Source: Isoetes taiwanensis
Taxonomy: Eukaryota; Streptophyta; Lycopodiopsida; Isoetales; Isoetaceae
DNA length: 64,000 bases
Reading direction: 5' to 3'
Assembly: GCA_021234155.1 (NCBI GenBank)
Contig: JAJEKV010000008.1
Coordinates: 21,834,212-21,898,211 of the forward strand
Shown here: positions 2,368 to 42,701 of the stretch, in pieces
How the letters are laid out: every line of letters begins with the position of its first letter
Position numbering within the stretch: position 1 is the first letter of the stretch
Notes under the pieces: model-generated
Databases searched by the model: none
What the model saw: the letters and a program-made list of their open reading frames with translations, nothing else
Told to the model about the DNA's origin: nothing
Program-made: the position numbers and the translations under genes

Positions 2368-2640
2368 TCGTGATAACTTTGGGATGTCAGGGATGGTGAA
2401 GGCCCTGGCTGAGGTCAAGGCATTTGCCAAGTCATGGGAAAGTCGGAGGGCACGGCAAGAGCGGGAGACGTTGGAGGCATTGTATCACGAATTGGAAGCC
2501 CTCTCGTGATAACTTTGGGATGTCAGGGATGGTGAAGGCCCTGGCTGAGGTCAAGGCATTTGCCAAGTCATGGGGAAGTCGGAGGGCACGGCAAGAGCGG
2601 GAGACGTTAGAGGCATTGTATCACGAATTGGAAGCCCTCG
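2368..2640. repeat. 136-nt offset duplication in the LINE (full length)
   Basis: 2368-2503 is repeated at 2504-2640 with one or two differences. Both copies begin TCGTGATAACTTTGGGATG and end at GAAGCCCTC. Confidence 0.92.
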
Positions 2641-3505
2641 TGTCCTACCGCCCGATGGGATGCGGAGAACGAGAATCGTGATTACATTGCAAAATGAGGA
2701 GTCCAGCCGGCTGCGCAGTAAAGGGTGAAGGGGATCACGGTGCGTGGAAGGGGACACCAATTCGGATGTTCTTCGTATGCACGCCGAGAAAAGCGGCGCG
2801 GCCTCCATGTCGCTCCGGCACCGCCTCGATGGGCGCGTCGCATTCGCTGTCGATATTAAATAGGCTACTTTCTGGCATTTCTCTCAGTTCTTTCAGGAAA
2901 AGACATATCCTTCTTCGATGTGATGGAGGAGGTTGTGCTCGCGAAGGTGTCATGCAAGGTGCCAGTGGATAGAAGGCAAGTATTGCAACTTGGATTTACA
3001 AAGGGTGAGCTAGAGGAGGCTTGCAGCTCGGCTCCTCATAAATGCCCGGATCGGGCGGCATTCGGTGGAGTTCTTCCAAGAATATTGGGACCGGTGGGGA
3101 GTCCGTGTCTTTGTAGACCTATCAAGACCTGCTTTGCCCGAGGCGTTGGATTATAGACTCAACACGGCTGCATCTCCTTGATACCGGAAGGTGAAGGAGC
3201 CCACCGCCATCGGATTGGCGCCCGATCACGCTTTCTCCAGATACAAGATTATCGCGAAGGCCTTGTCACTTAGATTGCAAGAGGTGTTGAAGGAGGCTAT
3301 TTGCCCCATGCGACCGGCTTCATTAGAGGCGCAGGCATATTTTCAATAATGTCGGCGGCATTGAGGGTATTCACCGGGCGCCCGTCTGCCAGAGCCACTG
3401 TCCTATGTCACGGTGAGTCATCGCCGATCTTTAGTGTGGGGCGCGGAGTTCGCCAGGGATGCCCGTTAGCGCCCTTTCTATTTACCATTGTTGCAGAGGC
3501 TCTCT

Positions 3506-3690
3506 CACAGTTCTTGCTCTCGGCAGTGGAGGCAGGTGTTGTGGAGGGGTTGAGCATGGCAGATGGGTCACAGCAGATTGGGAGTCAGTACGCTGATGAC
3601 TCTTTCCTCTTCCTATAGGCGGATGAAAGGAATCTGTTAAACACAGTTCTTGCTCTCGGCAGTGGAGGCAGGTGTTGTGGAGGGGTTGAG
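3506..3690. repeat. 136-nt offset duplication in the LINE (49 nt shared)
   Basis: The 49 nt beginning CACAGTTCTTGCTCTCGG at 3506 recur at 3642. The second copy lies between the RT words ERNLLNT and ESKCLALW, where about 18 other residues would be expected. It appears to replace native sequence rather than add to it. Confidence 0.9.
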
Positions 3691-3764
3691 GAGTCGAAGT
3701 GCTTGGCGTTATGGCCGGCAGAAGATCCCATGCCTGTGGTCGTGTCTCAATTTCCTTGGCGGAC

Positions 3765-4036
3765 GCAGCCGCAGGGCACATGTTCTAAGCTTTTGGGGAT
3801 CCCGTTTGGCATCGACATTTCGGAGGCAGGCATTTGGGAGGACATTTTGGTGGGGCTGCGCCGGCACCTTAATTGGTGGAAGGGAGGGAAGCTTTCCATG
3901 GCAGCCGCAGGGCACATGTTCTAAGCTTTTGGGGATCCCGTTTGGCATCGACATTTCGGAGGCAGGCATTTGGGAGGACATTTTGGTGGGGCTGCGCCGG
4001 CACCTTAATTGGTGGAAGGGAGGGAAGCTTTCCATG
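3765..4036. repeat. 136-nt offset duplication in the LINE (full length)
   Basis: 3765-3900 is repeated at 3901-4036; both copies begin GCAGCCGCAGGGCACATG. Native LINE frame (KLSMADRV) resumes right after the second copy, so this one is a true tandem insertion. Confidence 0.93.
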
Positions 4037-5005
4037 GCTGATAGGGTTACGGTGGCAAAGTCCGCTTTGTGTTCCACGATATTTATATGGCATCCATCAT
4101 CCCGGGCGGAAAGCAAGGTTCGGGAAATTTCCTCTATGGTTCGTAACTTTGTATGGGGTGGCAATGAGGAGGGGCGGTCGTCAAGGTGGCCCGGGTGGAA
4201 ATGTGTGCCCCAAAGTTGCCGGGACTTCGGTTTCTTGACCTCTCGCTCCATGGTAAGGTCCTATTGTCCAAGTTTGTCTTGCGATCTTGGAGAATGCACT
4301 TGACTCTCGGCATTGTCTTACTTCATCAGTCATTATCTCTTTCGATTGTTTTTCGTAGAAGTCAGTCCGCGGGTGCGTGGCGGCTTCCATGGGCGTTATT
4401 TGTAGATATCAAGGCCATATGTGAATGCTCTCCCTTTCTCAAGGGGCTTTTGCGTGCATGGGAGCACGTCGATCATTGTTTGCCATTGACGCCGCTTAGT
4501 TGTATTCCGATTAGAGGCATCACCATGGTGGATCCCGCCGTCCAGTGCGGTACCTACGATGTTGGCCACATCCGGACGATCCGGGGTCCAGGGCAGATGG
4601 GCATCGTGGGGTGCCGGCGGTGGGGAGTGTGGTATATTGACGGCAGCTTGCACCTCGGCAGCTTTTTCCGCCACAAGTTCGACTTCGAGAACGAGATTGT
4701 GCTATTTGGGCATGCGTGGCTAATGCGCCCGTATGAACTCCCCGGGCAGCATCGGGGGTGTGGAGTTGTCATCAAAAGTTGACCCCTCGAATTTCGTGAA
4801 GTCCGCTATGAGCTTTTGGCAATTCGGGATGAGATGCCCCTCGGATGGCTGGAGTCTTTAGGTGCGGAGATGATTGGAGCAACATTTGGAGATGGGTGTG
4901 GAAAAAATTATAACTTTCTTACCGCATCTCGGAAGGGGCTTTTAAAGCCGCTTACGGCTATATTAATATTACTTAATTTCATCCTTCAAAAAAAAAAAAA
5001 AAAAA

Positions 5006-6267
5006 CAGAATAGGCTTGGACTAAAAAACAGAATGGCCTGGTTGCTCTAAAAACAGCCCCCCTTCTCAAATCAAATAGTACGTGAATAATGCTTAAAAAA
5101 ACCACACGTGTTTTTTTTTGAAAACTACACTTGAGAACCACACCCAATTGGAAATCGCACAAGTTTTTTATTTGTGAAAACTACACTTGAAAACTACACC
5201 CGATTGAAAATCTCACAAATCTTCTATTTGTGAAAACTATATTTTAAAATCACACTTAAAAAAACCACACCAATGTTTTACGTTTGAAAACCACACTTGA
5301 AAACTATGTTATTTCTAGCGTTTTGGAACAAAACAATGCGTGGTTTTTTAGATTTGTTTTTTTAGCGAAAAACTACACATTGAGCACATTTGGAGGGGGT
5401 GTGATTAATTGCTAAAAAATATCAGAATAATTTACTAAGCCAAATATATTGAGGAAGATAGATGCGATCAAATACCATTCTATTAAACTTGAAATACAAA
5501 GCATTAGTTCGTATCAGACATTTTAAGTTGTTAGATAAACTAAATGAGATAATTATATTTTAGTACCATGGAGAAAAATATGATAAAAAAGTCATATTAG
5601 CATATTTTAAACAAGATTGTTTACTACATTGTGTATTGGTGATTAATCACTATAAATAATCATTAGAATTATGCGTCTAAAATTACCATGGCAATATTTT
5701 GAAGAAGATAGATATGATCAAATACCAGTCTAATAAACTTGACATACTAAACAATAATATATATCATATAGTTTAAGTTATTACATAAATCAATTAAAAT
5801 TGCCATGTTTCAATACCATGCCATAAAACAATGTTGCCTTATCACTTCAGAAAAGTACGTTGATAAATTATATAATTTAAGTTGTTACAGAGACCAATTA
5901 AAATTGCCATGTTTCAATACTATGTCATAAAACAATGTTGTCTTATCACCTTAGAAAAATATGTTGATGAACCATATTAGATAACTAGACATGGTTTGTA
6001 AACTTTTGAACCCACTAACATGTACTGATCTATAAATTTGTTTTTCACCAATAAACCATTAACAAAAAATCATAATGGTTCAATTTTGGGGGCCTTGTGT
6101 GGCGTGTATTCAGTTGGCGCGAATTGGCAGCATGAGTACACGCCAAAAACGTTTTGGGGATGCCTGGCTTTGTCCTTTCCTGATTATCCTGTTGGATTGA
6201 TCTAAAAAGCGGTTTATTTTTGTATGCCCTGCGTGTTTTGGCTGATATGATTTTCTTATTCGTGCAG
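5006..6267. repeat. AT-rich intergenic with imperfect repeats
   Basis: 5095-5330 holds about three imperfect copies of a roughly 66-nt unit built on GAAAACTACACTTGAAAAC. 5440-5970 holds two further degenerate duplications, around GAAGATAGATGCGATCAAAT and AAAATTGCCATGTTTCAA. No gene is seen. The segment ends in a pyrimidine-rich stretch and CAG at 6267, which would suit a splice acceptor. Confidence 0.6.
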
Positions 6268-7069
6268 CCCCTACGTGGAACAACTCCGTCATGCCCGCCA
6301 GCAATGGATAGAATATGGAAGACCCCTGCAAATAAAACAAGGAGGCATGAAGTTTGAGGAGTATAAGGTATTGGAAAAGACCTTGGCCCAGACTATCATC
6401 CAAGATAAGAGACCAAGGCCCAAAAAGACAGGAAAAAAAAGTGGGGAGGAAGCAGGGGACATGTCTGAAGCATCTTCCAGAGATCCTACAGATGCCTACA
6501 AGATCATCTTCGCTAAGGACGAAGTCTGGGTGAAGTGGAACGAGTTTTGGGATGTTTATGCTCAGAAACAACTACCAGATGTAATGGGAAGAGTGCCTCC
6601 TCAAGATACTTCAATATTTGATTTGAAGACCACCGAAATGAGGAAAGTACAGGGCCTTCAGGATGATGAAGTCATTTGGCTGTTAGATCAATGCATAAAC
6701 AAAGAAGTTCTGTACAAGAAGGCTTCTTCAGTTAAGGACAAAGTGTCCTTCGTTGATTGTTGCACTCATATAAAGGACATGCGAGTTATGAAGGTAGCAG
6801 TTGGTCAAGAACTTCAAAAGCTATCTGATGATGTAACATTGTCTGAACTCGGCCTGCTAGACAAGTATGGCGTGTCTGCTGATGACATCAAGAAATACGT
6901 CTTCTGGTCCAAGGACTTTCTACAAAACAGGAAATCAAAGAACCAACATCATACTACAAAACTATCAGATAAGGTGATGGCTGAGCTGAGAAGAAAGGTT
7001 GCCATGACTTACCTTCACTCTAATACCTGGTCTCTACTGGCTATAAAGGTCTCCTACCCGATACAACAA
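6268..7069 (+). pseudogene. unrecognised protein-coding segment, first part
   Basis: An open frame of about 265 codons follows a plausible splice acceptor (TTCTTATTCGTGCAG). The predicted product is hydrophilic with a basic stretch (DKRPRPKKTGKK) followed by acidic/polar sequence. It contains words such as DEVWVKWNEFWDVYAQ and VIWLLDQCINKEVLYKK, and no signal peptide or membrane segment. I do not recognise the family. Later segments to 8220 on the same strand look like continuations (KEYNSFFTSCIGLPTEKLF at about 7140; the next frame from 7234). The gene would be split by introns or frame breaks. It may be a transposon-encoded or captured gene. Coding is supported only by the length and composition of the frame. 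Confidence 0.45.
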
Positions 7070-7110
7070 TAAGCCCTCGTAATATTTCTCTGTTTGTATT
7101 GAATCGCAGG

Positions 7111-7226
7111 ACTGCAAAAGGAGAGAAGGGGATGACTCAAAAAGAGTACAACAGTTTTTTTACTAGCTGCATAGGCTTACCAACTGAGAAGCTCTTTACT
7201 ATTGTCATCATTTGGCCCCCATGAGA
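7111..7226 (+). pseudogene. short coding-like segment, continuation of the upstream gene
   Basis: After ATTGAATCGCAG, a plausible acceptor, the sequence reads TAKGEKGMTQKEYNSFF and SCIGLPTEKLFTIVIIWPP before a stop at about 7222. It lies between two longer frames on the same strand with matching codon style. The reading frame differs from both neighbours, so either an intron or a frameshift separates them. Confidence 0.35.
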
Positions 7227-7233
7227 GCCTCAT

Positions 7234-8220
7234 ATGCATGCTTTGGTGGCTTCATACGACTTGGAATGCCTAAAGGTCGTTAGGGAAGGTTCTCTTCTCT
7301 TTGAGGCAAAGGATACTGATTTGAAAATGCAGTTTAAAAGCGCCTGTATAATCTTCATAATGATATCCCTTGTGCCAGATGATGACTATGAGGTAGCTAA
7401 GAGCAAAGAGACATCAGATAAAGGTGCATGGCAGTGTTTTCTTTTGGATGAACCCAGCTTGAAAAATGTCTTCTACAAAGTAGATGATGAGGATGAAGCG
7501 AATGAATGCCAGGAATTTGATGCTCCTAACCTTTACCGGAAAGACATCACTCTGGAATTGTTGACAAAAGAAAAGGGACCCTTGAATAAACATGGATTTG
7601 CAATCAAACTGGCAAGCTATCTTGTTGAGGCTTTTGCACCACTTGATACCACTTGCTGTGAACTTCATGTTGGAGGATACATTGGTAGAGAAGCCCTGAA
7701 GACATCAAGAAGATGTCTAAGTTTCGTCAACGATCACCAGTCCTTCTTTGAAGTGTTTTTTGACAAGGTACTACCACGGCTGATTGGGGTTCTGTCAAAG
7801 ATAAAAACCCGTTGGCTTTGGTACCTTACAAAGGGAAGAAGCAGACTATTATTTCACAACCGCCTCCAAGAACAACTCCAGAATGTTCAAAAAGCAATGC
7901 AACCCTTGAGGAGAAAGCCGCAATGCTAGCGCGGGAACGTGAGATCATGGAGCAAAATATGGAGTCTATGCTTGGTAATATTCCAACTGGTAATGTTACA
8001 CTTGGGGGTATGACTACGGTAGTTCCTGATACAAGCCAGGATGATCATGCAAGCTCAGATTCAACCACTGAGGTTAGGAATCAAAACCCTGAGGCATCTT
8101 TCATAGAAAAGAATGTGTCCGAACTAAACCGTGGAGTTGATGCTTCTGACTACGGTAGTTCCTGATACAAGCCAGGATGATCATGGGGATGACCACAAAG
8201 GCTCTGATGATGAAAGGTAA
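7234..8220 (+). pseudogene. unrecognised protein-coding segment, second part
   Basis: The frame from 7234 reads SYDLECLKVVREGSLLF, then an acidic stretch (FYKVDDEDEANECQEFD), then VEAFAPLDTTCCELHVGGYI, REALKTSRRCLSF and FFEVFFDKVLPRL. At about 7770 the frame shifts by one and continues as DWGSVKDKNPLALVPYKG, followed by a charged, Met/Glu-rich tail to 8165. The GGYIGREALKTSRRCLSFVND stretch faintly recalls a Rossmann-type methyltransferase core, but no catalytic motif is visible, so I make no functional call. A 39-nt segment of the tail is repeated 136 nt later. The frame break makes a working product unlikely unless splicing repairs it. Confidence 0.4.
8011..8185. repeat. 136-nt offset duplication (39 nt shared)
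   Basis: TGACTACGGTAGTTCCTG and the following bases at 8011 recur at 8147, 39 nt identical. The flanks on both sides differ. Confidence 0.9.
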
Positions 8221-8229
8221 TTCACGCTA

Positions 8230-9133
8230 GGTGCGATATGTAGAATACTTCTGACGGACAAAACGCGCTTGGCGTGCAGGGTAAAAATTATGGGCACCTA
8301 TTATATTTTATGTTATTAACCATGGGCGATTTTCTAGTGTTTTTATATTTTTATTAATTAATATATGGGCAATTTTTTCTGAACAAAAAAAAAATATTTT
8401 ATTCTGATGGAAAATACAATTTGGTTTACAAGTTATTTTTTTCATTCTTACACAACTTCAATAAACTAACATCAGCTATTGAGGAATGAAATACAATTTA
8501 TTATCATAGTCATGGCCAAAATTTCGCATCACATTGAATATCCCACCCCCATATCTTCCACACCAACTGTTTTTTATGGTGGTCTAGTACTAGCTGTTAT
8601 GGTGGCTTTTCCATAAACATTTTGATAATTCCTTTGTGCATAAACAATGGGTTCTACAAATCTCTATAAGCTTAAAGAGACCGGTGCTACAATTGGTGCT
8701 AGAAAATCTATACTTCCAAATCTCTGAGTCATTACAGAGGTCGTTGCTATGTAAGGTCTAGCTCGAAGATACCTATGTCGATTATAAACAATGGTTATCA
8801 CGAAGAAGTTTATCCCTCATTAATGTCAGTCATTTTATGCAATTTTTTAAACTTATTATTTTTGAAGATCATATATGGGCTAATCCATTTTTAAAATACC
8901 CATAAAAGAATCATGACATGTAAACAATGGTTATCACGGCAAGATAAAAAAGAATTACACATGGGCGATTGCACATACCAAAAATGCAAAACTGATCCTA
9001 CTAATCTCTCAAATCTTAATCCAAGAATTAGAAATAAAATAGCCCATTTGCGATTAATCGTCCTTAATTTTTACCCTGTTGGCGTGTATTGCAGACAATT
9101 TTTGTATGGCTAACTCTTTGTTTTCCATGGTTC
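8230..9133. other. AT-rich non-coding, possible intron or intergenic
   Basis: No supported frame. The only internal structure is the 18-nt duplication at 8785/8921. Just upstream of the phosphatase-like segment are two plausible splice acceptors (GTATTGCAG at about 9094, TGGTTCAG at about 9135). Confidence 0.45.
8785..8938. repeat. 136-nt offset duplication (18 nt shared)
   Basis: TAAACAATGGTTATCACG occurs at 8785 and again at 8921. This is the shortest member of the 136-nt offset set. Confidence 0.75.
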
Positions 9134-15622: not shown

Positions 15623-17508
15623 TAGCAAATAAAGCATGCTTACATACGTCCAAGAAAAAATGAGAAGAAAAATTGACGGTGTCCCTAAGCCTAACGTTTT
15701 CGAATTTGTCCCGTGTAAAGAAATTTGAAGCCCTCTTTGCTGCAATTCCTAGGATGTTGATGCAACTAAAAATCTTTCTGCACTTATGTTGTCATCTTAT
15801 CCTTCAATCTGGACTGACAACAAAAAATGCAAAACATGTGCCATTTTCTGTCATGATTTGTAAAGAATCCTTGTTTACAGCAATAACATTATATGCCATG
15901 TTTACTGCAATAACATTATATGCCCTTTTTTAAGCTGAAAACAAAATCCTATGTAGTCTTATTTTGTTGATATATGTGCAATTATTTTTACCAATTTGTA
16001 ATAATTGGTGAAAATTTTCCACAAAGCATTTCTTCAGTATTATCATGAAAAGGAACAAATTGGCCTTGTCCCAGAAGCCTCATCCATTCTGTCAGCGGGG
16101 TCTGATGCCATCTTTTCTACGGCTTTTTATTAAGCTCACTCCATGTTTTACAATCTTCTAGATGCGGCCAAGTTTCTATAATATACTAACATCTGATTTA
16201 ATTAAGGTAACAAGGTGCTGCGCACAGAGGGTTGCCCTCTGTGGCCTGAGGGTGAAGTGGCTTATATCATACTTCAATTTCATGTTTTCACAATCAATCA
16301 AAATTGCTACTTCAAAACAATACAATACTTGATACCATGACATTATGAAAATACAGCTCTGAAGATTGTGGATGAAGTGAATTGCAAAAAGTTAGCTTAA
16401 ATTTGAATTTATAAAACTGATTTCAAGATCATAATAACTGTTACACTGATTTCAAGACAACATCTGTTTAGCTTTTTATAGAATGGTTACATGAGTTCAT
16501 TGCCAGACTCTTAAAATGGCAAGAAATGTCTTATGTTTTTGCATTTACTTCTGTTTTAATTTTTGAACTGCAAAAAAATAGAATAAAGGAATATTCTGAG
16601 TCATAATACTTAATTTATTGTGATAATCTTAGGAATATTCTAAGATGCTCAAGTTATGGGTTTTAACCCTAATTAGATCTAACGGTCATCAACGGTTGGA
16701 TCATTGTAAATTTCGAGCCCTATGGTTTAAGGTGCATCGACAACAATCCTAAAGTCAAGTACACTGTAGGGCCTAGTGTTTTCCAACCGAAAATGATCTC
16801 AGTTACAATAATTCACTACATATCTGTAGAAAGTAATGGAGCAGCAAAGGTGTTGATCATCAGAGGACCAAATGTAACCAAAAGGAAAAGGTGAATCTAG
16901 TTATTTACCATGCAATTATCATGATCATCACTCTGTGCTACTGCAGAACAGGATATACTCATAGAAGGCAAAATGGCCAAAAGATTGAAAAATATTACAA
17001 GTGTCAGTAGAATAGTAAGGAAGGTGTAGTTGTTAATCACTTAAGTTTCTACACATCATGAACAAGAAGTTGGTACGGAGCTTCATGTACCTTTATGCCA
17101 ATTTAATGCTAAAGCCAAACAAAAACCAGCAACATGCAAAACTGATGTCAGGCCTTACAGAATACTTATTTCTTATTCTTTTAGCAAGGTCAACTTGCAA
17201 AGGACATAAAGTAGCACCATCTTAAGCATCTAGTTCACAAGCAATCCATCCTACAGCCCATTCACACAATATAATTCTAAAATCTTCAACCGATTCAACT
17301 TCCACAGTCATGTTTACTTCTATCTTAACCAAAATTGTACTTCAAACAATCTTGCTAGATGCACAGGATACAGGTAAACACTTAGAACTCAGCGTTTCAA
17401 TTGGCCATTAAGCCTGATGAAAAGCTCATAATCAATATCCACAGGCCAAGCACATAACCATACCCATCTCTAGGAAGGGCAGTAACTATCGGACGTCATT
17501 GAACCTTT
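15623..17508. other. AT-rich intergenic, nothing recognised
   Basis: Contains short local duplications (for example ATAACATTATATGCC at about 15886/15911) and a small GC-rich hairpin, CAGAGGGTTGCCCTCTG, at about 16221. No supported gene. Confidence 0.45.
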
Positions 17509-17850
17509 CAGCTCCTGAGAACCATGAGTGAGAATGGCTGCAAACCAGGTATTTTCACATATAATACTTTGTTAGATGGATTTTTTAAGGCTGGTAGAAT
17601 TGAGAAAGCACATGAGCTACTGAAGGAGATGATTTCTGAAGGCTGCAATCCAAATGAAATCACCATCAACATAATTGTTGATAGTATGAAGGTGCACATG
17701 AACTTCTTGATTATCTTCTATCAAAGGGTTTTGATCCTGATATTTTTACTTACACCACCATCATGGACAAGCTCTGCAAAGAAGGTAGAGTAAAAGATGC
17801 TCTTGGCCTCTATGTATGCAATAGATGCTCCTGGCCTTTATGTATGCAAT
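17509..17850 (+). pseudogene. pentatricopeptide repeat (PPR) gene fragment
   Basis: The frame reads MSENGCKPGIFTYNTLLDGF, then FKAGRIEKAHELLKEMISEG and CNPNEITINIIVD, classic 35-residue PPR units. After a frameshift at about 17685 it continues as EGAHELLDYLLSKGFDPDIF, TYTTIMDKLCKEGRVKDALG, which completes the next units. PPR proteins bind organelle RNA and act in its processing, with the code residues near the start and end of each repeat. Only about three repeats remain, without targeting peptide or neighbours, so this is a gene fragment, probably carried here by a transposon. A 32-nt duplication follows at 17805-17850. Confidence 0.85.
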
Positions 17851-17917: not shown

Positions 17918-18520
17918 TATATTGGGCGCCATGGCCCCTTTCAGTAAACTTTATGATGTTATTGTTGTTTTTGCCCATTTTATTACAGTGTGTTTGCATA
18001 TATTTGGGCGGCTCTTGCTATGCAATGTACGGAATTGAGATTACAAAATGTACTCATAGTTGTTTGCAATGGGAATAATTTGTTTGTCTTGATGTTATTG
18101 TGCTTTTTAGTAATTAATATTTAGGCCCATAAAGTTTACCTATGTTTGCGCTAGTTAGGGCCTGAAGGGCCCAAATTTTTTTTTTAATATAACAATCAAC
18201 ACACAACTACCATTAACATTATTAATACAAACCATTGCATTTAACACATTTAAATTAAAATCCCCCTTAAACCCCCTTTAGTTTGGGTGCATATTCACAC
18301 GGGGGGTTACGTAGGGCAGCGAGAGCCCCAAAAATATATTTATAATACATGTACAAAATTAACACCATTAAGTACATTCTTTCAAACCTTATAGTATTTT
18401 ACAAATCTCAATATACAGTATAGCAAAACTTGTACATGCATACCCCACAAACGAGGATCACTATGTATGGTTCAGATCAAGGAATAATGAGCAAATATGC
18501 CCATCCGACAGTGCTCCGAA
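17918..18520 (+). repeat. inverted-repeat element, left copy
   Basis: This 0.6-kb block begins GGGCGCCATGGCCCCTTTC and passes through GGGCCTGAAGGGCCCAAA and the minisatellite-type words ACACACAACTACCATTAA. It ends near GGGTGCATATTCACAC and a segment containing GCAAATATGCCCATC. It matches 24755-25445 in reverse complement. About 90 nt (18012-18105) are present only here. No coding capacity. Confidence 0.75.
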
Positions 18521-19389: not shown

Positions 19390-19390
19390 C

Positions 19391-20010: not shown

Positions 20011-20282
20011 TTACAAAATAATAATGATATATAATGACAATAACACATGAATTTAACACACTTTAGACATAGTGAATGTTGCTCATTATCCGTTCATTAA
20101 TTTAAGTTAAAGAATTAAAAGTCCAGATCCACTATTGTGAATTCTATTACAAAATAATAATGATATATAATGACAATAACACATGAATTTAACACACTTT
20201 AGACATAGTGAATGTTGCTCATTATCCGTTCATTAATTTAAGTTAAAGAATTAAAAGTCCAGATCCACTATTGTGAATTCTA
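20011..20282. repeat. 136-nt offset duplication (full length)
   Basis: 20011-20146 and 20147-20282 are essentially identical, starting TTACAAAATAATAATG and ending GTGAATTCTA. The single-copy version lies at 38620-38745. Confidence 0.95.
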
Positions 20283-20454: not shown

Positions 20455-21745
20455 TTTCCGGAGGCTGTTTCTTTTTTTCTTTTTTTTCCTATTTTCACTT
20501 TCAATTTTTCTTGATAAATAATATATCTTTCCCTCAAGGCTACCTTTTCCACTTTTCAAGACAAAATGAATAAGAGTTTTCCCCTTCATTTTCTTTTGAA
20601 GACAACATTTTCCCACTTTTAAACATTTTCTCTTTTCTTTTTCTCTTGTACCCATTTTTCTTTTAGAAAAGAGCTTTCATCCTTTTTCCTCTCTCAAAGG
20701 ATGGACCCCCTTTCGGAACTTTTTCTCTTCCTCCTTTTCCAAACAAGCTCAACATGAAGGATTTCCCTCTTCCCCTTTTTCTTGTGCCAAGAAGGAGCAA
20801 AATGGTCCTTTTCTTTTCTTTCCTTTCCTTTTCCCATCGGGGAAAAATGTTTCCCTTTTGAGGTGAAATAAATAGGAGACATGAGAAAGCTCGTCCCCCA
20901 TCCAAAGATGCCCTTTGCTCCCTTTTTCTATTGCTTTCACAATAGAACCATGCCATTTTTTCCTTCTTACGCGGAAACAGCGGTTCCTTCCCCTTTTCCT
21001 TCCCTTTTTCCATGCATTTTCCCTTCCCCATTCTATTTGAAATTTTATTGATGAATTAGAAGATTGACTTTTTTGCCTTTTTCCATCCCAACCCTTTCTC
21101 TTCTCCTTTTGTCGTGGCTTTTCATTCAAAGACGGTATGATTTTCTTGAACACTGAAGGTTTTCCATGCCCTTTTCAACATTCATTTCCATCTTAGAATT
21201 TTTTTTCCTCAACTTTTTCTCTTTTTACCCTTTCATGCCATTTTTGTTTTCTCTAACCCTTTTTAAATATTTGGGAATCACTTTTTTTCTTCTTTAGCAA
21301 TTACCCTTTTATGGATGAATTCCCTTTCCTCATGCCCTTTTCCATGTTTCTTCCACCTTTCTACCTCCTTTCACCCCCATTTTCCCACTATCTTTCAATG
21401 ACTCCACCCTTTTCTTGTTTCCTTTATCCCTTTTGTCTTCCCTCTTTACATCTTTTTCCCACCTTTTGATGAATTTCCCTTCTTCTATGCCATTTTCCCT
21501 TCTCTTTGCCCTCTGAGAATTCTCTTTTGTACAAACCTTTTCTTCCTTTTTTATTTTTTTCCTTATTTTTCCTATTTCTTCAACCCTTCCCTCTTTCCCT
21601 TTTTAGGAATGCTCTTTAAACCTTGATTTTCAAAAGGAGGATGAGACACCCTTTTTTGGGATTTTTCCTAGCTCCTTTCCTTCTTCCTTTTCATTTTTAA
21701 TCAATAAGAACCCTCTAACACTTTTTTGGAAATTCTTTTTTCCTC
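20455..21745. other. mosaic: LINE/Helitron sequence interleaved with pyrimidine tracts
   Basis: In order, this region repeats recognisable words of 19005-19955: GAGGCT, TAAATAATATAT, AGACAAAATGAATAAGAG, AAGCTCAACATGAAGGA, CAAGAAGGAGCAAAATGG, AAATAGGAGACATGAGAAAG, TTTTATTGATGAATTAGAAG, AAATATTTGGGAAT, GGATGAGACACCC, AATCAATAAGAACC. Between these are inserted, or substituted, tracts such as TTTTCCCTT, identical in style to 36420-37410 and 42690-43540. The copied template spans the LINE-Helitron junction at 19806, so the mosaic postdates that insertion. The polar, basic or Phe-rich frames here are by-products of the pyrimidine bias. Confidence 0.85.
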
Positions 21746-22555: not shown

Positions 22556-23468
22556 AGGGCAACAAACCATTAATTAACACACAACTACCATTAATATTAT
22601 TAACACAAACTATTAATTAACACACAACTACCATTAATATTATTAACACAAACCATTTCATTTGACACATTTAACACAAACCATTAATTAACACACAACT
22701 ACCATTAATATTATTAACACAAACCATTAATTAACACACAACTAACCATTAATTAACACACAACTACCATTAATATTATTAACACAAACCATTGCATTTG
22801 ACACATTTAACACAAACCATTAATTAACACACAACTACCAATTAATTAACAAACAACTACCATTAATATTATTAACACAAACCATTAATTAACACACAAC
22901 TACCATTAATATTATTAACACAAACCATTAATTAACACACAACTACCATTAATATTATTAACACAAACCATTAATTAACACACAACTACCATTAATATTA
23001 TTAACACAAACCATTGCATTTGACACATTTAAATTAAAATCCCCCTTAAACCCCCTTTGGTTTGGGTGCATATTACAACTACCATTAATATTATTAACAC
23101 AAACCATTAATTAACACACAACTACCATTAATATTATTAACACAAACCATTGCATTTGACACATTTAAATTAAAATCCCCCTTAAACCCCCTTTGGTTTG
23201 GGTGCATATTCACACGGGGGGGTTACTCCTTGGACAACGAGAGTCCGCTTTGATGGGCATATTTGCCCTTTATTCCAAGATCTAGGCCGTATATAGCGAT
23301 CCTCGCTTGTGGGTATGCAAGTACAAGTTACCAAAGGGGGTTTAAGGGGGATTTTAATTTAAATGTGTCAAATGCAATGGTTTGTGTTAATAATATTAAT
23401 GGTAGTTGTGTGTTAATTAATGGTTTGTGCTAACTAAAAAAAAATTTTTGGCCCCTTCGGGGCCTTAA
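22556..23468. mobile_element. foldback-like element with tandem-repeat arm
   Basis: The left arm (22560-23195) and right arm (23325-23468) are inverted copies sharing TTAAATTAAAATCCCCC and AACACACAACTACCATTAAT. The left arm is expanded as a minisatellite of about 43 nt. The centre (23200-23325) carries GGGTGCATATTCACAC and a segment shared with 18480-18520 and 24790-24870. Long inverted arms made of tandem repeats resemble foldback elements. No transposase frame is present. Confidence 0.65.
22560..23170. repeat. 43-nt minisatellite array
   Basis: About ten or more near-identical copies of a 43-nt unit combine AACACAAACCATTAATTAAC with ACACAACTACCATTAATATT. Copies are contiguous with occasional truncated units and a CATTTGACACATTTA variant. 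Confidence 0.85.
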
Positions 23469-25140: not shown

Positions 25141-25173
25141 AAGCAAACATAGGTAAACTTTATGGGTCTAAAC

Positions 25174-25445
25174 ATTAATATCTAGCATTAATTACTAAAA
25201 AGTATTTCCAAATATACGTAAACACAATGTTATAAAATGGGCAAAAACAATAATATCATAAGGTTTACTGAAAGGGGCCATGGCGCCCAATATAAAGCCA
25301 GTACAATCCATTAATATCTAGCATTAATTACTAAAAAGTATTTCCAAATATACGTAAACACAATGTTATAAAATGGGCAAAAACAATAATATCATAAGGT
25401 TTACTGAAAGGGGCCATGGCGCCCAATATAAAGCCAGTACAATCC
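25174..25445. repeat. 136-nt offset duplication (full length)
   Basis: 25174-25309 is repeated at 25310-25445 (ATTAATATCTAGCATTAAT to GTACAATCC). The matching inverted copy near 17918 has this segment only once. Confidence 0.95.
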
Positions 25446-25816
25446 AAAGATGGGCATCTGCGAGAGCTCGGTTACCATATATCCGAAAGCAATCTAGTTT
25501 CCTAAGAACCTATCTCGGCTGGTACCAGTACCAAAGCAACTAGGGATGAAGAAATGTACATGATTTATGGCTCTTTGGACCGCCCCATCTTGAAGCCGTG
25601 AGATTGTTGTCTCTATCACTTTTACCCCGGGTCATTCGACCTTGTGGAGAGACTATGTTTCCCATCCATGTATGAGGAACACAACATTAGAGCTAGGGGC
25701 CCCAAGCTCGCCCTAAATAAGTCGTGCGAGCCACTTTTTTTTCTTCAAGAAAAGGATATGGGGGAATTTAATGTGCTATTACGTTCAAAAATGACCTAAA
25801 CCTGATATAAACCTGA
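25446..25816. other. intergenic, nothing recognised
   Basis: Mixed composition without a supported frame; it ends at the Helitron 3' end at 25817. Confidence 0.4.
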
Positions 25817-28800: not shown

Positions 28801-30165
28801 TGTGAATGTGGAGCCAACTGAATGCCAATGAGCTAGACAAAGAATGCAGGACACTGCATAGCTCAGGATACTGCAAGAAAAGTAAGTCACAAAATCGTAA
28901 TGATGTTAATTTCCAGTCTTCAATAAAGTATAGAGATGACAAAAATCAAATACATCATATAAAAAGGAAAATAAAAAACTGCAAATGAGAAAACAAATGA
29001 GGACAGGAGACAATTTGATCATTGCTCCTCTGTTCTAAAACAGTGCCCAATATTTTTGCAAAAGCCCCAATATTATAATTTGCTTCAAACACAAACCATG
29101 GACATTGAGATCCTAATCCTTTGCACTGCAAATTAATGCACATGCTTAGAATCTCTTTGAGAGAAGAGGGTGATAATACAATAGAAGATAAGGGAACTTG
29201 AAATTAGGAAACTAAATTGCAAAGCTAGAATCGAGCTTCCTAGCTAATATTTCGATCAAAATAATTACAATTACCTACTTCCAAGAGAAAAATGAAACCT
29301 CAAACTGAATTCCTACTGGAATTTCGAATCTACATATGTAGATAACGCACAAAAACTTTCTGCAATCCTACAACTTAAAAATCAAAAAAAAATAGGCCAA
29401 ACGGAAATTCCAGAAACGGGAAATAGATATATTTTGCTTCTTTTGTTTAAATCCACCAAAGCTTAGAACCCCGCAACAGTGACCCCATAAAAACCGTAGC
29501 CTGAAAAAACTAAGTTCTTAATGAGAATAACAAAGATAGGAAAACAGAAGTCCAGTACTGAAAAGGGATAAACAAAGCTCTGGCCGTATCAACTCTCTCT
29601 TCTCTTCTCAATAATGTTGGCGGAGCTTCTAGCCTAATAATCGCAAGACATCATCGCTTGCATGTTTCTTCTGGTGCTCCAGAAACAAAAAGAAGCATAC
29701 TGTCTCTTTTGACTTAGAATTTCCTTCTGAACGTGAACAGATATCCAAGCCGAGATGGAACATTGACCCCAAAAACAATAAAACATCATCACAAAAATAA
29801 AATGTTCTCAAACCTGAACGATTTTAGAAGGTAGCATGACCCGGCTGAGGCCTTCCACCCGTCCTGCATGCTGCCGATGAAGTGTGGGAGGACCAAATGC
29901 GTACCCATTTTAATTTCGACGTCTTTAGAAGTTTTTCGAAAATCGAAAAATTTTCAGGTGTCTGAGAATCCCAAAAACGTTAGGATCAGAGTAACGCTAG
30001 GCTAAGACGTGTCTTCCATCGCCCATGCAATGCAACAGCACGCTGAAATCGCCAAAAAAGGAAACAACCCTAGAAATAAAACCCTTGCCAAAATCATGAA
30101 AAAATAAGTCATTGATTTTTGGCAATCAGAAATAGTTTCCGGCAGAAAAAATCCCCCAAACCTTA

Positions 30166-30434
30166 GGCAAATAGCCTAAGAAAAAAATCTAAAAAGTTTT
30201 CCACCTGCCGGAAAAACCAAATTTAAACAATAGATATAAAGCTGATATAATGATCTCCCGTTGCCGAATATAAAATCCACCGTCCCTTCAATATAGCATA
30301 GGGCAAATAGCCTAGGAAAAAAATCTAAAAAGTTTTCCACCTGCCGGAAAAACCAAATTTAAACAATAGATATAAAGCTGATATAATGATCTCCCGTTGC
30401 CGAATATAAAATCCACCGTCCCTTCAATATAGCA
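30166..30434. repeat. 136-nt offset duplication (133 nt shared)
   Basis: GGCAAATAGCCTA at 30166 recurs at 30302. The copies match for 133 nt with one substitution, to CAATATAGCA. Confidence 0.93.
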
Positions 30435-33627: not shown

Positions 33628-33760
33628 TAGATAATGACTACTGAGGGCTCAGTAATTGCAGACGTTTATCTAGAACCTCAAGTATATATAATGCCAAGTC
33701 ATGCACAGATGGTGTGCTGAGAAGTTGTGGAAGCGTGGAATGGAATGCTAAGGTCGAAAA

Positions 33761-33965
33761 ATGATTCCGGACTATCTCAAAAGCAGGGCAACTCAGAAGA
33801 GTATGGCTTTCATCTTCAATAACCTGTAACTGGCAACAGGTACATAGTCTCGCTTCTCGCGGCAATTGCGGCCGCTCCCATCTACCTGTCTCAAAAATGA
33901 TTCCGGACTATCTCAAAAGCAGGGCAACTCAGAAGAGTATGGCTTTCATCTTCAATAACCTGTGC
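33761..33965. repeat. 136-nt offset duplication (about 70 nt shared)
   Basis: AAAAATGATTCCGGAC and about 70 nt through CAATAACCTGT occur at 33757-33830 and again at 33893-33965. The second copy replaces LINE coding sequence of about the same length. Confidence 0.92.
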
Positions 33966-35535: not shown

Positions 35536-35555
35536 GGGCAACGAAATCATTGCCC
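35536..35555 (-). other. Helitron 5' subterminal hairpin
   Basis: GGGCAA...TTGCCC hairpin, 95 nt inside the 5' end at 35650. It corresponds to the hairpin at 10923-10943 with a compensatory base-pair difference (TA to CA, and TG for TA opposite). Confidence 0.65.
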
Positions 35556-35650
35556 TCTTTTTATGTTGAATCTCCATCGTCCCTTCGAAAAATCGAATTC
35601 TCACCGTCGGATCTAGGGCGTGGTCCATTACAAAACATTATAATATAGGA

Positions 35651-36430
35651 TGGCTGTGAAGTATGGGCTCCAAGCTTGACGGCCAAGCTATGGAAAAAGG
35701 TAGATAATTTGCAAAAGACATTTTTGCGCGCTGAGCTAGGGGTGAAAATGCAAACGCCATATGCGATGATGCTTGCAGAAGTGGGAATGCTGCCTCTTGA
35801 GGGCGAAGCAATGATTCAGACTGCCTCTTACTTGCTCAAAGTCAATGCATTAAGTAAAGATCACCTTTCCCATATAGCTAAAAGAGCATCCGCGGATAAA
35901 GGTTGGTACCATGATGTAATTTGTTGGTTGCAGAAATGGAATATTAGTGTAGGTGAGTTGGTGGGCAAGAGAGATAGAATACGAGATCTGGTTTGTCATA
36001 AGTTTCAAATTAAAACCTGGAGCGCGATCCAAGAGGTAAAGATGTCTTTCTACCAGCAATCTATTAACCCGTCTTTACAGGTAGCAAAATACTTGTCAGA
36101 AAATATATCTATCTCAAACATGCATTTGCTTCATCGAATGCGTTTGAGCTCACACTATTTGACTAGAAGATGGCAGAGGATAGAAAACTCCAATACTCTA
36201 TACAAGAAAGTTCATTAGTTGAGCTCTTTGGACTCTCAACAAAATACTTGTGTTCTTATATAGATGAGGTGCTACAGAAAAGATGTACTTGCTTGAAAGA
36301 AGAAGTAAAAACATGTGGAGAGTGAGGAGTTGAAGGTTTATGATTATGATCATACATTGTGCTTTGTACTTAATTCTCGTTCTATAGACCTGATAGGTCT
36401 CTAAAGGAAGTAATAAACATTTCATTTCTT
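35651..36430 (+). pseudogene. LINE fragment, right half
   Basis: Continues the LINE broken at 19805: GCEVWAPSLTAKLWKKVDNL, KTFLRAELGVKMQTPYAM, EVGMLPLEGEAMIQ, FQIKTWSAIQEVKMSFYQQ and HLLHRMRLSSHYLTRRWQRI, to a stop at 36218. Past that the family resemblance continues in another frame (LFGLSTKYLCSYIDEVLQKR), so a frameshift is likely. AATAAAC at 36412 may be the 3' polyadenylation region. No catalytic residues are included in this half. Confidence 0.85.
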
Positions 36431-37410
36431 TCTTTTCCCTTTCTGATTCCCTTTTTTTTTTTTTTCTTTTCCCCATTCCTCACCCTTTCCCTCTCCTCTT
36501 TTTTCTCGTGTCATTTTTCCACATTATCTTTCTCTCTTTAGTTTTCTTTTCCCCTTCCCTTTCCCCTTTTCCATGCGATTTTTTCCTTTTTGTCACCCTT
36601 TTTCCCCTTGCCTCATCATTCCCCTCTTCCCCTTTTCCCCATGCCCTTTTTGTCTTTTCCCCCTTTCCATCTTCCCCTTTTCCCGTGCCTATTTGCCCTT
36701 CACTTTCCTCTCCTCCTTCCTTTTTCTTTGGTGGGATTGTGTGATAAGTCTTGGCCTTGGATACGATCAAATGATCTCATTCCCCTTTTTCTTTTTTCTT
36801 TCCCGTTTGGCATGCACTTTTCCCTTCAATTTTCCTCTTTCCCACCTTCTCCCCTGTCCTTTTTGTCCCTGCCTTTTCCCCTTTCCCTCTCTCTCTTTTC
36901 CTCGTGCTCTTTTTCCCTTCTCTTCCCTCTTTTCCTGCTCCCTTTCCCTTTTCCCATGACCTTTTTCACTTCCCTCTTTGCACCCTTTTCTTGTTCCCCT
37001 TTTTCCCTTCCCTTATTCTCTTTTTCCCACCCCTTCCCTCTTCCCTTTTTCTCGGTGCCTTTTTTTCATTCCTTCCCCCCCTCCCTTTTTCTTTCCCCTT
37101 TCCCTTTTCCTTTTCCCAAGCTATTTTTCCCTTCCCTTTTCCGCTTTCCTCACCCTTTCTCTCTTTCTCATTTTTCCATGCCCCTTTTCCCTTCCCTTTT
37201 TCCCCTTTTTCCCCTCCCTCTTTGCTCCTCATTTTCTCCCTTTCATCCTCCCTTTTCCTTTTTTCCCTTCCCTTTTCCGCTTTCCTCACCCTTTCTCTCT
37301 TTCTCATTTTTCCATGCCCCTTTTCCCTTCCCTTTTTCCCCTTTTTCCCCTCCCTCTTTGCTCCTCATTTTCTCCCTTTCATCCTCCCTTTTCCTTTTCT
37401 TTTCCTTAAA
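36420..37410 (-). repeat. polypyrimidine block (polypurine on the Helitron sense strand)
   Basis: Nearly 1 kb of C/T, built from TTTTCCCTTCCC-like words with occasional TCCATGCCC and CCTCACCC. It is broken at 36735-36780 by recognisable Helitron 5' subterminal sequence (GATAAGTCTTGGCCTTGGATA). Long Phe/Ser/Pro or Lys/Glu/Arg frames here are artefacts of composition. It directly precedes the Helitron 5' end at 37527. Confidence 0.9.
37125..37400. repeat. 136-nt offset duplication within the pyrimidine block
   Basis: CCGCTTTCCTCACCC at 37141 recurs at 37277. The match covers about 136 nt on each side of the 37261 junction, to CCTCCCTTTTCC. Confidence 0.9.
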
Positions 37411-37527
37411 TCGAGTTCAATCACGGTAATGTGTGTAATCATCGATAAATATTAGCCGGATGCAACAATAATCTCGGCCATTCAAATTAGGGCTTGATCC
37501 AAGGCAGTATAACATTATAATATAGGA
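37410..37527 (-). mobile_element. Helitron 5' end (family A)
   Basis: On the minus strand TCCTATATTATAATG starts at 37527, followed by TCAAGCCCTAATTTGAATG as in the element ending at 21892. With the pyrimidine block it forms the 5' half of a family A Helitron. Its own 3' end is not found to the left, where LINE sequence ends at about 36430. Confidence 0.75.
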
Positions 37528-37528
37528 G

Positions 37529-37740
37529 CTAGTAAGAATTGCCCAGCGTTCTTTGGTATAAGTTAAATGTGTAAATGATATTCAAAAGAAGGATGAGACA
37601 CCCTATAAGGGATTGGTCCTAGCTCAGTATTCCTTTCTTAATCAATAAGAACCTCTAACACGTGAAATTCTAGAATAGTTTTCAAAAACATAGTGCGTTC
37701 TAAGCTCTTTCCTTCTGCTCCAGTCTTTAATCCCATCGAT
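37529..37740 (-). mobile_element. Helitron 3' end (family A), abutting the previous element
   Basis: CTAG at 37529-37532 and a damaged hairpin (GCCCAGCGTTCTTTGG) start one base after the neighbouring Helitron's 5' end. The next 180 nt match 19840-20000 (AAAGAAGGATGAGACACCCT, GGATTGGTCCTAGCTCAG). No matching 5' end to the right is identified. Confidence 0.7.
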
Positions 37741-37965
37741 CGATATATAGAGACAACACATGGATCACCATTCTAGAATGGGACGAGCATGCATGTTTTG
37801 CATGCATCGGGTGGCGAGATGCCCGATACAGTTGGGAGTTCGCTATTTTATGTATAGCGATAATGAAAATGCAACATCTCAAAAAAGCGTGTGAAAATTC
37901 CTCTTCTCTCTCAGTTATTTGATAACCTTATTCTCGTGATTTGTTACAAAACCATTACATGGGGA
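37736..37965. other. mosaic of two neighbouring sequences
   Basis: Patches alternate between sequence A (38120-38335: CCCATCGATC, CATTCTAGAATGGG, TTTTGCATGCATCGGG, GTTGGGAGTT, CATCTC, CTTATTCT) and sequence B (38625-38885: CGATATATA, ACAACACATG-like, TGTATAGCGATAATGAAAA, AAAAAAGCGTGTGAAAATT, TTATTTGATAAC, TTACAAAACCATTACATG). Patch length is about 6-25 nt, and order is kept in both parents. A and then B follow intact downstream. Confidence 0.8.
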
Positions 37966-38375
37966 GGGCTTCTCCCCGCTTGGTGAGATGTAATTGGCGT
38001 TTCTTTCTTCTTTGTTCTTTTAGGCCTTTAGCCCGTCCTGTGACCTTCGTCCTCGATCCTAGTTTGTAATTAAAGTCCTTTGGTGTGAAGGCGGTTTGTT
38101 GGTTTCATGCGAGTCCCATTCTAGATCCCATCGATCAAGAGACATCGGATCGCCATTCTAGAATGGGGTGTTGCATGTTTTATGTTTTGCATGCATCGGG
38201 GAGATGCTCATTACGTTGGGAGTTAAGCTATTTTAGGCGATTCTCATTTTACAACAACATCTCATGGGGGCTTCCTCTTTCTCTCAAGATTTACCTTATT
38301 CTGCCGGAACCCACCCTCCCCCCTTCTTTGTTTTTTGGGAGCGTTTTTTATGCCTTGCGTTTGTCCAAGCCCCTT

Positions 38376-38454
38376 GCCGAAGGCTTATCACTAGGGTTTT
38401 TCCTCGAAAACCCGAAAGGGCGGGGTTTTTTAATCCAGGTGATAAGCTTTCGGC
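38376..38454 (+). other. hairpin with conserved core, copy 3
   Basis: GCCGAAGGCTTATCAC pairs with GTGATAAGCTTTCGGC (one G-T wobble in 16). The loop carries GGTTTTTCCTCGAAAACCC and GGGCGGGGTTTTTTAATCC, the core shared with 18625-18690 and 33536-33627. Confidence 0.8.
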
Positions 38455-39057
38455 AGGTACACTAGCCCAATCTCTATTAGCATTGTAATTTGTTGGGGTC
38501 CAAATGATATAATTGGATTTTCCCTTTATTTTTGTGGGTAGTTCGTGCGGCTACTCACTATCCACCATTGTAGAGTTTGTTGGTTTCATGCGAGTCCCAT
38601 TCTAGAATCTCTAAAATAATAACGATATATAATGACAATAACACATGAATTTAACACACTTTAGACATAGTGAATGTTGCTCATTATCCGTTCATTAATT
38701 TAAGTTAAAGAATTAAAAGTCCAGATCCACTATTGTGAATTCTAGCTGTATGTATAGCGATAATGAAAAATGCAATATTACGTCAATAAAAAAGCGTGTG
38801 AAAATTGCATAATCATTTTGCACACTAGAATGTGTTATTTGATAACAAAAGAACGATTGTGGGACATACTTACAAAACCATTACATGATGAAAGGGTCCA
38901 TAAACGAAATTGAGATGTGAAGAGAGCATGGAATGAAGAAAATGGCATTAGGGGGAGAACTAGTAATGGTGCCCAGCGTTGCTGGGTATAATTTGGAACT
39001 TTATTAGAAACCTGCATATAGCCTTCTAGACCATTGTAACTGCGCATTTGCATAGAA

Positions 39058-39238
39058 TAACTTCTAGGCCATTGGATCATTTTGAGAACATGTAGATTGC
39101 AAGTGACCATGTCTATGAGGTGTTGATATTGTGTACTGAATCTCATATAGTCACTCTTTTGCTGCTTGTATATGAATGTGGATGTGTTGTGTTTAACTTC
39201 TAGGCCATTGGATCATTTTGAGAACATGTAGATTGCGA
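39058..39238. repeat. 136-nt offset duplication (about 43 nt shared)
   Basis: CTTCTAGGCCATTGGATC and following bases at 39061 recur at 39197, with different flanks. Confidence 0.9.
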
Positions 39239-39444
39239 TTTAGGTGGGATCCTATTCTAATGGGGATTTGATCTTTCATTTACTCCTATGATCCGGCAGT
39301 CCAGTATGGATGTGTTGTGAACAACACCATACCTTTTGAAGGCATTGAATTCTATAGTGCGACCTTAGACAATTCTTTCGTTATGTATATAGCTACCTTT
39401 ATAAGTTCTTTGCACCTATAATTAGAGCTACCTTAAAATCTACT

Positions 39445-39618
39445 TAGATATTATTAATCGTGTGTGTGAATAAAATGTGAAACATGTGTCATGACTCTAC
39501 ATATATTAGAGTAGGCATACATGGGATACATATATTTAACAAAATCCACGAAGCGTTGTTTTCAACAATTAATAAGTATGTAGATATTATTAATCGTGTG
39601 TGTGAATAAAATGTGAAA
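39445..39618. repeat. 136-nt offset duplication (38 nt shared)
   Basis: TAGATATTATTAATCGTG and following bases at 39445 recur at 39581, with different flanks. Confidence 0.9.
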
Positions 39619-41809
39619 AAAGAGTGAATTTTATTAGACCTATGGGGCAAACTGATAAAAAGTGAGCAAGCCATTTTCCCACGCTTCCATTCCCATTCAT
39701 AGTTACGAAGGGCCAAACTGGTAAGGAGTGAGCAAGTCCTTATCCTACACTTCGTTTCATGTTTGTAGTTACAATACTTCGTTTCATGTTTGTAGTTACA
39801 GTGAATTATTGTCTGACGCTTCCATTCATGTCTGTAATTACAATGGTCCATTTTGTTGTACATGTATGTGTGCTAAAGTATATGATCAACTCTTCTTTAT
39901 GAAGTCTCAAATCCACATATCTTAGGCTCATAACTGGCTAAACGTTACTTGGTATTCTAGTGTTAAATTTTTATTAAAAAAGAAATTTTGTTTTAAAGCT
40001 TTGGACACATGGCATAGAAAAATGTCAGCGGAATTTCCACATTAAATTATGTTCTCAAAAGACATGGCATGGAAGAATGTTAGTAGAATTTCAAGATCAA
40101 ATTATGTTCTTAGGTCTGAGTGACATACCATCTCATCACAACATAGTACTTCCTTTTACATTAACCATATCATCATAACACAACACTTCCCTTTGCAATG
40201 TGTTTATATCGTAGAACTGAACAGAGCTTCTGCTTCAAATTAGCATATATTGATGCAACAACAAATATATACAATGGTTCAGCTTTGCTATTCTGCTTAA
40301 AATTCGACCAGCATTGGAGCATTAAGGAGAGAATGAAGCATTGTAATGGAACTTTTGTGCCCTTGCTAGCCCAACAACAGACACTAAGAGGGCTATTATA
40401 AGGATAGCTGCAACACCTCCACGGCACACCTGAATTGAAACTTCAAGAGAACTCTATAAGTGGGAAAGGCCTACGCAGTGTGCGCACACTTGAAGACTTA
40501 AGAAATGGAATGAATATTTATAAATGCAAATTAGATTTACCGCTTGCAGATGTTGTTTGTTCTTTTCCAATCGCAAGAATCTCCCTTTCAAGCAACAACC
40601 ACAATTTGTTGATTGTCAGAACAAATTTGACAGGCAAACAGAGTTTCCTGTCTCAATCACAGAATATACTTACACAAAACAGAAGAAATTATAAGATTAT
40701 TTTCACAAATAGGAGCAGTTGTATACCTATTTTTAGTCCACGTTCCCCAGTGGTATTACATCGATCTGGCATTCATAATATTGCAACTTGTAAACACCGT
40801 GAAAAGGCAAACAAAAAGGAAATACTTTGCTGACCATAGCTTAGAAGAAATCAAGCATATCGAATAGAAATATTGCATCATTCATTATCTGTACATTCAC
40901 ATCACAAATTTTTATATCCATCTGCAACTTTACATCAACATGCTTGTTGTATCTACATACCAAAACAGCCGGCCTACATCAACATTACTGCAATTGTTCA
41001 GGGATAAAAGAAAGTAAACGAAATTAAAATAAAAGAAAGTGAACGAAAGTGAGAACTAATATTTGTTGTCCAATAAAACAGAAACGAAGCATGAATAGCG
41101 CGTTTAATCTGCAGAATCATCCTTCAAGTTTGCTCATCCAAAAATTGGTCTGTAATAAACAGATACACTTACAAAGCCTTGAATTTGCTTGGAAACTCTC
41201 TAATAAGCTTAAACTGGCTACAATCCCGTGCAAATTGATTGCAAACTTGATGAAAGTGCTCTAAATCTGCTCTCAATCTTGAAATTGGCCTGCAATAAAT
41301 CAATAAATTTAGAACCAATTAGAAAAATCAATGAGATAGTGTATCTTGCATCTCCAAAAATATAAAGCGTTTGGAATCCTTCTGAATAAGATTTGGAAGT
41401 AAAAAAAATGGCCTTCTTTGTTAGTACCAACTTAGAATAGGAACATTATACACATTGCAAGGAACATTATACACATTGCAATTTTGGAGTCCGCTTTGGA
41501 GGTCCCATTAGCGCTGAAAAGCTGCCTTCCAAAGAAGGCAGATCATTTTTCCGAAACTGGAGATCCTTTTTGGATGGCAGGCAGACATGCATGGACACTC
41601 TGTATTTATTTAATTCGTAATACTACTCAGCCCAGTACAGAAGACCTGGCCTTCTTGCTTGCTAGAAAAAACCCAGTTCTAAAAGCTCAGCATTTGGATC
41701 CCATTTGGTTTTCCAACTACTTCCCTGTATCATATTACCTCTAAGACCTGTTACTCAGCCGTGTTTGATGCAAGAATACCCTACCTTATTTGTAGAAGCA
41801 TGCCGAGAA

Positions 41810-42081
41810 GATAGAAGAACGTAGCAGGCAGAGAATAGAGGGAAACCCATGACCCGCCTTCAGCTCTGTTCTTCATCTCTTGGTGCCTGTTCTGCTTGTA
41901 GAAACAATGCGAAACAGAAAAGCAACAACTAAAGGCAAATCTTAAGATAGAAGAACGTAGCAGGCAGAGAATAGAGGGAAACCCATGACCCGCCTTCAGC
42001 TCTGTTCTTCAACTCTTGGTGCCTGTTCTGCTTGTAGAAACAATGCGAAACAGAAAAGCAACAACTAAAGGCAAATCTTAC
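41810..42081. repeat. 136-nt offset duplication (full length)
   Basis: 41810-41945 is repeated at 41946-42081 (GATAGAAGAACGTAGCAGG to GGCAAATCTTA) with one substitution. Confidence 0.95.
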
Positions 42082-42429
42082 GCATCGTCGAGGAAGAAGA
42101 AGAGCCATCGAGGCGGTGCCATCGCCATAGTCCATCAATATTCGAGCCCATCGCCATAGGCGGAGAGATACGGTTCTCTGAGGGAAAGCGGCGGGAAGTC
42201 CGAGAACCTCAAGAACCTCAAGATGCGGGGAGCAAGAGGCTGTTCTTATTAAACCCGAACAAAACAATACCAATCCACGGGTCTTATGCCCCCATTGCCA
42301 AAGCTAAAGCTTCAGCCATTGTTTTCCCTTTGCATCAAAATTTGTTTAAGAAATCTTGGCCGTGCAATGTCGATGGATCTCAGCCGCCAAATTAGGGCTG
42401 GGTCCGGAGGGCAAAAGCGTCCGAGATTA

Positions 42430-42701
42430 CTAGTTAAGGTGCCCAGCGTTGCTGGGCATAGCTAGAAACTGTGAATGAAAGAGAAGAGCGATTGTTAAAT
42501 GGATTCGTGTTTTTAAAATTGGATAATCAAGAGCATTCAACCATATTTTGCACCTTTTCCCTTTTCTAGTTAAGGTGCCCAGCGTTGCTGGGCATAGCTA
42601 GAAACTGTGAATGATATACTGGAGCGATTGTTAAATGGATTCGTGTTTTTAAAATTGGATAATCAAGAGCATTCAACCATATTTTGCACCTTTTCCCTTT
42701 T
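42430..42701. repeat. 136-nt offset duplication of a Helitron 3' end
   Basis: CTAGTTAAGGTGCCCAGC at 42430 recurs at 42566, so the Helitron 3' terminus with its hairpin is present twice. A short stretch differs between the copies (AAGAGAA against TATACTG) without length change. Confidence 0.95.

Follow-up and report, generated by a model that had tools for sequence, protein, structure and literature searches.

Direct repeats at a constant 136-base offset in an Isoetes taiwanensis scaffold point to a probable coordinate slip in assembly finishing

A 64,000-nucleotide stretch of the Isoetes taiwanensis genome assembly (GCA_021234155.1, contig JAJEKV010000008.1; C1089:21834212-21898211, hereafter the window, with positions counted from its first base) carries direct repeats whose two copies lie exactly 136 bases apart. 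Judging from the sequence, we consider it very probable that these repeats are an assembly artefact that arose through a coordinate slip during finishing, and not through k-1 overlaps left unmerged between unitigs. The duplications are really in the file and almost certainly absent from the plant, and do not represent a biological feature. On one scaffold the slip extends over at least 0.5 Mb, and none was seen in 11 stretches elsewhere. Under the proposed mechanism, the scaffold would be a mosaic of well-polished stretches and stretches, mostly repeats, that polishing did not reach. In this part of it, the unpolished blocks would have been restored from a different version of the scaffold, and both ends of each block would have been read 136 bases too far to the left. 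Any block of more than 136 bases would then carry, at the left edge, an exact tandem duplication of 136 bases, and at the right edge its final 136 bases would be missing; in a block of fewer than 136 bases, the whole content would give way to the sequence 136 bases to its left, leaving a partial copy that overwrites what was there. The probable cause would be the use of outdated coordinates during polishing or gap closing.

The initial annotation of the window, made from its letters alone, had listed fourteen such pairs and suggested a self-match offset histogram as a check. That histogram peaks at 136, with 1239 pairs of 16-base words; the runner-up, offset 43, has 167, and these come from a tandem array at 22.56-23.15 kb. 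After masking of part of that array (22560-22938), poly-A and low-entropy runs, 18 exact runs of at least 16 bases remain at offset 136, whereas no other offset between 60 and 999 has more than 2 (mean 0.01 per other offset). In total the window holds 15 direct repeats at exactly 136, of which nine are full-length, with 131-136 of 136 bases identical, and six are partial, with copies of 18-71 bases (Table 1). Four of the nine full pairs carry mismatches (2, 3, 1 and 5) and the other five have none. Neighbouring events are always more than 136 bases apart, and the copy positions show no pattern relative to fixed line widths of 60, 70, 80, 100 or 136.

All fourteen listed pairs are present at the constant offset, and the variable shared length and the substitutions that had been described are borne out as well, but a fifteenth pair (22939/23075, 136/136) had been overlooked. 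Some of the starts had been placed a few bases off and are corrected here to 33757 (from 33761), 37124 (37141), 39058 (39061), 41808 (41810) and 25173 (25174). The natural array itself (22560-23151, AACCATTAATTAACACACAACTACC type, with periods of 43, 65, 93, 114 and 136) was left out of the event count because some of its spacings also equal 136; this removed the matches at 22612, 22659 and 22744. A poly-A run at 47000 and two short matches, of 12 bases at 17954 and of 10 bases at 43166, were likewise left out. The composition filters of the masked run count, and of the survey described below, dropped the copy at 37124, which is included in the event counts given here.

Other copies of the same long interspersed nuclear elements (LINEs) in the same genome (1,658,258,908 bases, 1110 contigs) served as the reference for what each event did to the sequence. 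Three other copies of the plus-strand LINE (L028, L029 and L030) contain the unit 3765-3900 once and have no second copy, so that the window copy at 3901 is an insertion of 136 bases; of the 39 other matches listed, from 40 candidates scored out of 420, not one has an alignment covering both the 3765 and the 3901 copies. L029 also lacks the second copy at 2504. Within the window, the unit at 38613-38744, which is single, resembles 20011-20146 (131 of 132 bases identical).

The partial copies behave differently from these insertions. At 3642, where 3506-3554 recurs in the window, L028-L030 hold different sequence, with an aligned stretch around it of 423 bases in the window and 426 in the LINE copies; at the protein level, the window has 18 residues where the best homologue (P0001) has 19. 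At 33893, a LINE copy on another contig (L019) has 72 native bases in place of the 71 copied ones, with only 24 of 72 columns identical there against 60/65 and 69/71 in the flanks. Both testable partial events, of six in the window, thus overwrite a nearly equal length, as a slip would do to short blocks. The initial annotation had remarked that native LINE sequence seemed to be overwritten at 3642 and 33897 (start corrected to 33893), and this remark, which the other genome copies confirm, was the key clue to the type of artefact. Although the two LINEs lie on opposite strands, the overwriting runs left to right in both, so that its direction is that of the assembly, whatever the orientation of the element.

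A slip of this kind would also take away on the right what it adds on the left. This pairing was set down as a prediction before the alignment test on the two full events in LINEs, and both testable full events (of nine in the window) are followed by a downstream deletion of about 136 bases. In the best alignment to each of the three copies, 138-140 bases are gone at about 3380 after the event at 2504, and 131-133 bases are gone at about 4950-4957 after the event at 3901. The sequence between second copy and deletion is dense in insertions and deletions (indels): block 2, after 3901, has 32, 36 and 37 indel events against L028-L030, which among themselves show 16, 3 and 16 there, and block 1, after 2504, has 38 against L029 and 25 against part of L028. 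Outside the blocks, the LINE has 0-1 indel events per comparison with L028-L030, and the second copies have none (the first was compared with L029 only). The indels set in 8 and 42 bases past the ends of the two second copies. At all three differences examined between left and right copies (2439/2575, 2473/2609 and the base that follows the exact run in the copy at 3642), it is the right copy that agrees with the LINE family, while the left copy has a base of its own; the right copies therefore resemble a different version of the same sequence.

We surveyed the surrounding scaffold at C1089 21.600-22.106 Mb and found 45 events (26 full, 19 partial) in the 140,567 bases of ten stretches with sequence; the survey itself gave 44 (25 full, 19 partial), to which the 37124 copy was added. 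Events occur in nine of the ten stretches, the exception being 4,567 bases of L012 ahead of a run of N. Partial copies range from 18 to 120 bases over all sampled stretches and none of the 45 copies exceeds 140, although near runs were merged over gaps of up to 10 bases, so the length of a copy richer in mismatches might be underestimated. Six further stretches consisted entirely of N. No events were found in ten stretches of 10 kb elsewhere (C1089 at 10.0 and at 15.0 Mb, plus eight on seven other contigs), in ten 3-kb loci (a set that excluded L008, which overlaps L007, and L027, which is the window itself), or in 5 kb at C1089 20.30 Mb, where absence could be chance at that length. The offset is 136 on either side of the run of N that starts at about C1089:21,912,779; provided that these N mark a scaffold gap and do not stand for withheld sequence, the slip arose after scaffolding.

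The constant offset, the limit on copy length, the insertion at 3901, the overwriting, the deletions of about 136 bases, the indel-dense blocks and the confinement to part of the assembly all fit one slip mechanism. The likely source assembly (I. taiwanensis v1, PMC8566536) comprises 1658.30 Mb in 204 scaffolds and 909 unplaced contigs, and the methods passages of that article describe miniasm, racon and pilon, scaffolding with Bionano maps, and then two rounds of LR_Gapcloser with pilon between them. We count this repeated use of pilon and LR_Gapcloser after scaffolding in favour of a slip. Several points weigh against it. The deletions of 138-140 and 131-133 bases are not exactly 136, and a gap of about 50 residues near 3385 was already suspected from P0001 before the deletions were tested. 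The indel excess of block 1 is not beyond its control, given that L028 and L029 themselves differ by 30 indel events, and block 2 contains an extra deletion of 382-387 bases at 4903 relative to L028-L030 that a slip does not account for. The evidence for deletion or overwriting comes from four of the 15 window events (two full, two partial), and we infer the same behaviour for the 11 events that have no comparable LINE copy. The stretches sampled revealed no upstream start of the slip.

The alternative that fares best, although we regard it as improbable, is a gap filler that left an unstripped 136-base anchor in its fill, or trimmed the fill to the length of the gap as measured from where the anchor begins. 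It would explain full insertions as well as partial copies in short gaps, and LR_Gapcloser was used on the likely source (PMC8566536). That program closes gaps with read sequence, raw or corrected, and its description gives default tags of 300 bases in the passages covering them, with no 136-base anchor described there (PMC6324547). The second copies have no indels relative to LINE copies, unlike raw long-read fill, and right-end deletions near 136 are not predicted unless an assumption is added. The paired deletions and the clean second copies led us to reject this model.

Unmerged k-1 = 136 overlaps of neighbouring unitigs in a short-read assembly, the specific artefact proposed by the initial annotation, are a good deal less probable still. 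Exact 136-base tandem copies, the five full pairs without mismatch and the event spacings above 136 are what such overlaps would give. They would, however, be pure insertions of identical full-length copies, and the events do not bear this out: native sequence is overwritten at 3642 and 33893, four of the nine full pairs are mismatched, 19 of the 45 copies (six of 15 in the window) are partial, and deletions of about 136 bases accompany both testable full copies. In addition, the methods passages on the likely source (PMC8566536) name no de Bruijn assembler for the nuclear genome. The annotation was right to consider an artefact, but its other proposal, a copying process with a fixed step, is extremely improbable, as is any process in the living genome that rewrites DNA from a template exactly 136 bases to one side: the copies are present in the sequence, some with substitutions, but their direction tracks the assembly strand whichever way the element lies, each insertion that could be tested has its deletion of about 136 bases, second copies stop where indel-dense sequence starts, and the effect is limited to part of the assembly.

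Table 1. Offset-136 events and associated blocks in the window (window coordinates)
Feature	Position	Strand	Description
Full copy	2368..2639	+	Unit 2368-2503, second 2504-2639, 134/136; in LINE
Indel-dense block 1	2640..3380	+	Follows second copy; ends with 138-140-base deletion at about 3380
Partial copy	3506..3690	+	3506-3554 again at 3642-3690 (49 bases); replaces LINE sequence about 3 bases longer
Full copy	3765..4036	+	Unit 3765-3900, second 3901-4036, 136/136; pure insertion relative to L028-L030
Indel-dense block 2	4037..4957	+	Follows second copy; ends with 131-133-base deletion at about 4950-4957
Partial copy	8011..8185	+	8011-8049 again at 8147-8185 (39 bases)
Partial copy	8785..8938	+	8785-8802 again at 8921-8938 (18 bases)
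Full copy	20011..20282	+	Second 20147-20282, 136/136; related unit 38613-38744 single
Full copy	22939..23210	+	Second 23075-23210, 136/136; right end of natural tandem array
Full copy	25173..25446	+	Second from 25309, 136/136; exact run of 138
Full copy	30163..30434	+	Second 30299-30434, 133/136
Partial copy	33757..33963	+	33757-33827 again at 33893-33963 (71 bases); replaces 72 bases of minus-strand LINE
Full copy	37124..37398	+	Pyrimidine-rich DNA; second from 37260, 136/136; exact run of 139
Partial copy	39058..39236	+	39058-39100 again at 39194-39236 (43 bases)
Partial copy	39445..39618	+	39445-39482 again at 39581-39618 (38 bases)
Full copy	41808..42080	+	Second from 41944, 135/136
Full copy	42430..42701	+	Second 42566-42701, 131/136; five mismatches inside seven bases

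The window beyond 42701 is free of events (P = 0.002 for 15 events under uniform placement). Near 44 kb the guanine plus cytosine content climbs from about 37% to about 47%, and 43600-64000 contains gypsy-type remnants, with a Tf2-1-like SH3 domain at 56836-57117 on the minus strand. This part is indel-dense relative to related sequence in L011 and L018: gap openings against related sequence beyond 43.6 kb number 83 in 1591, 67 in 1665 and 45 in 934 columns, whereas four other comparisons gave 1 in 373, 1 in 453, 1 in 425 and 4 in 398. It is possibly a single long unpolished transposon nest, and may represent one long unpolished block that starts after the last event at 42566.

Further content of the window includes CCCTTTT-type pyrimidine-rich tracts with strong strand skew at 20750-21600, 36400-37450 and 42600-43640, the other strand being purine-rich. 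PPR repeats lie at 17503-17790 in a short open frame, with more PPR-like pieces in another frame, and this region looks like a broken or intron-split PPR gene. A Pfam search of ten open reading frames gave matches for three: a reverse transcriptase (below the cut-off), the PPR repeats, and the Tf2-1-like SH3 domain with a sub-cut-off integrase match. In protein searches, neither the minus-strand LINE end nor the open reading frame at 6251 gave a relative at E <= 0.001, and Rfam and ARAGORN scans of the window found nothing.

For users of this assembly, the sampled stretches imply a false duplication or an overwritten stretch about every 3 kb over at least 0.5 Mb, and each full copy is probably paired with an unseen deletion of about 136 bases. 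Gene models, lists of tandem repeats and estimates of transposon age cannot be trusted in such regions. The fault shows up in seconds, and without reads, in a self-match offset histogram, which could be a routine check of finished assemblies.

Literature searches turned up no title dealing with such a fixed-offset slip, which does not prove that none is in print, and no paper on plant assemblies that used 137 as k-mer size. Unmerged k-1 overlaps of de Bruijn unitigs leave fixed-length tandem duplications at arbitrary places; the events described here share the fixed length, but overwriting, mismatches and paired deletions are not expected of such overlaps. False segmental duplications in assemblies have reportedly been the subject of an earlier study. 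The heterotype and homotype false duplications described in PMC9516828 are likewise duplicated sequence that exists in the assembly only; the heterotype class is recognized there by copies that have haploid read depth and contain heterozygous k-mers, and incorrect gap filling between false duplicates is mentioned. As that article presents them, those duplications stem from divergent haplotypes or read errors and vary in length, whereas the events in this scaffold keep a constant offset, overwrite native sequence where they are partial and come with deletions of about 136 bases where they are full.

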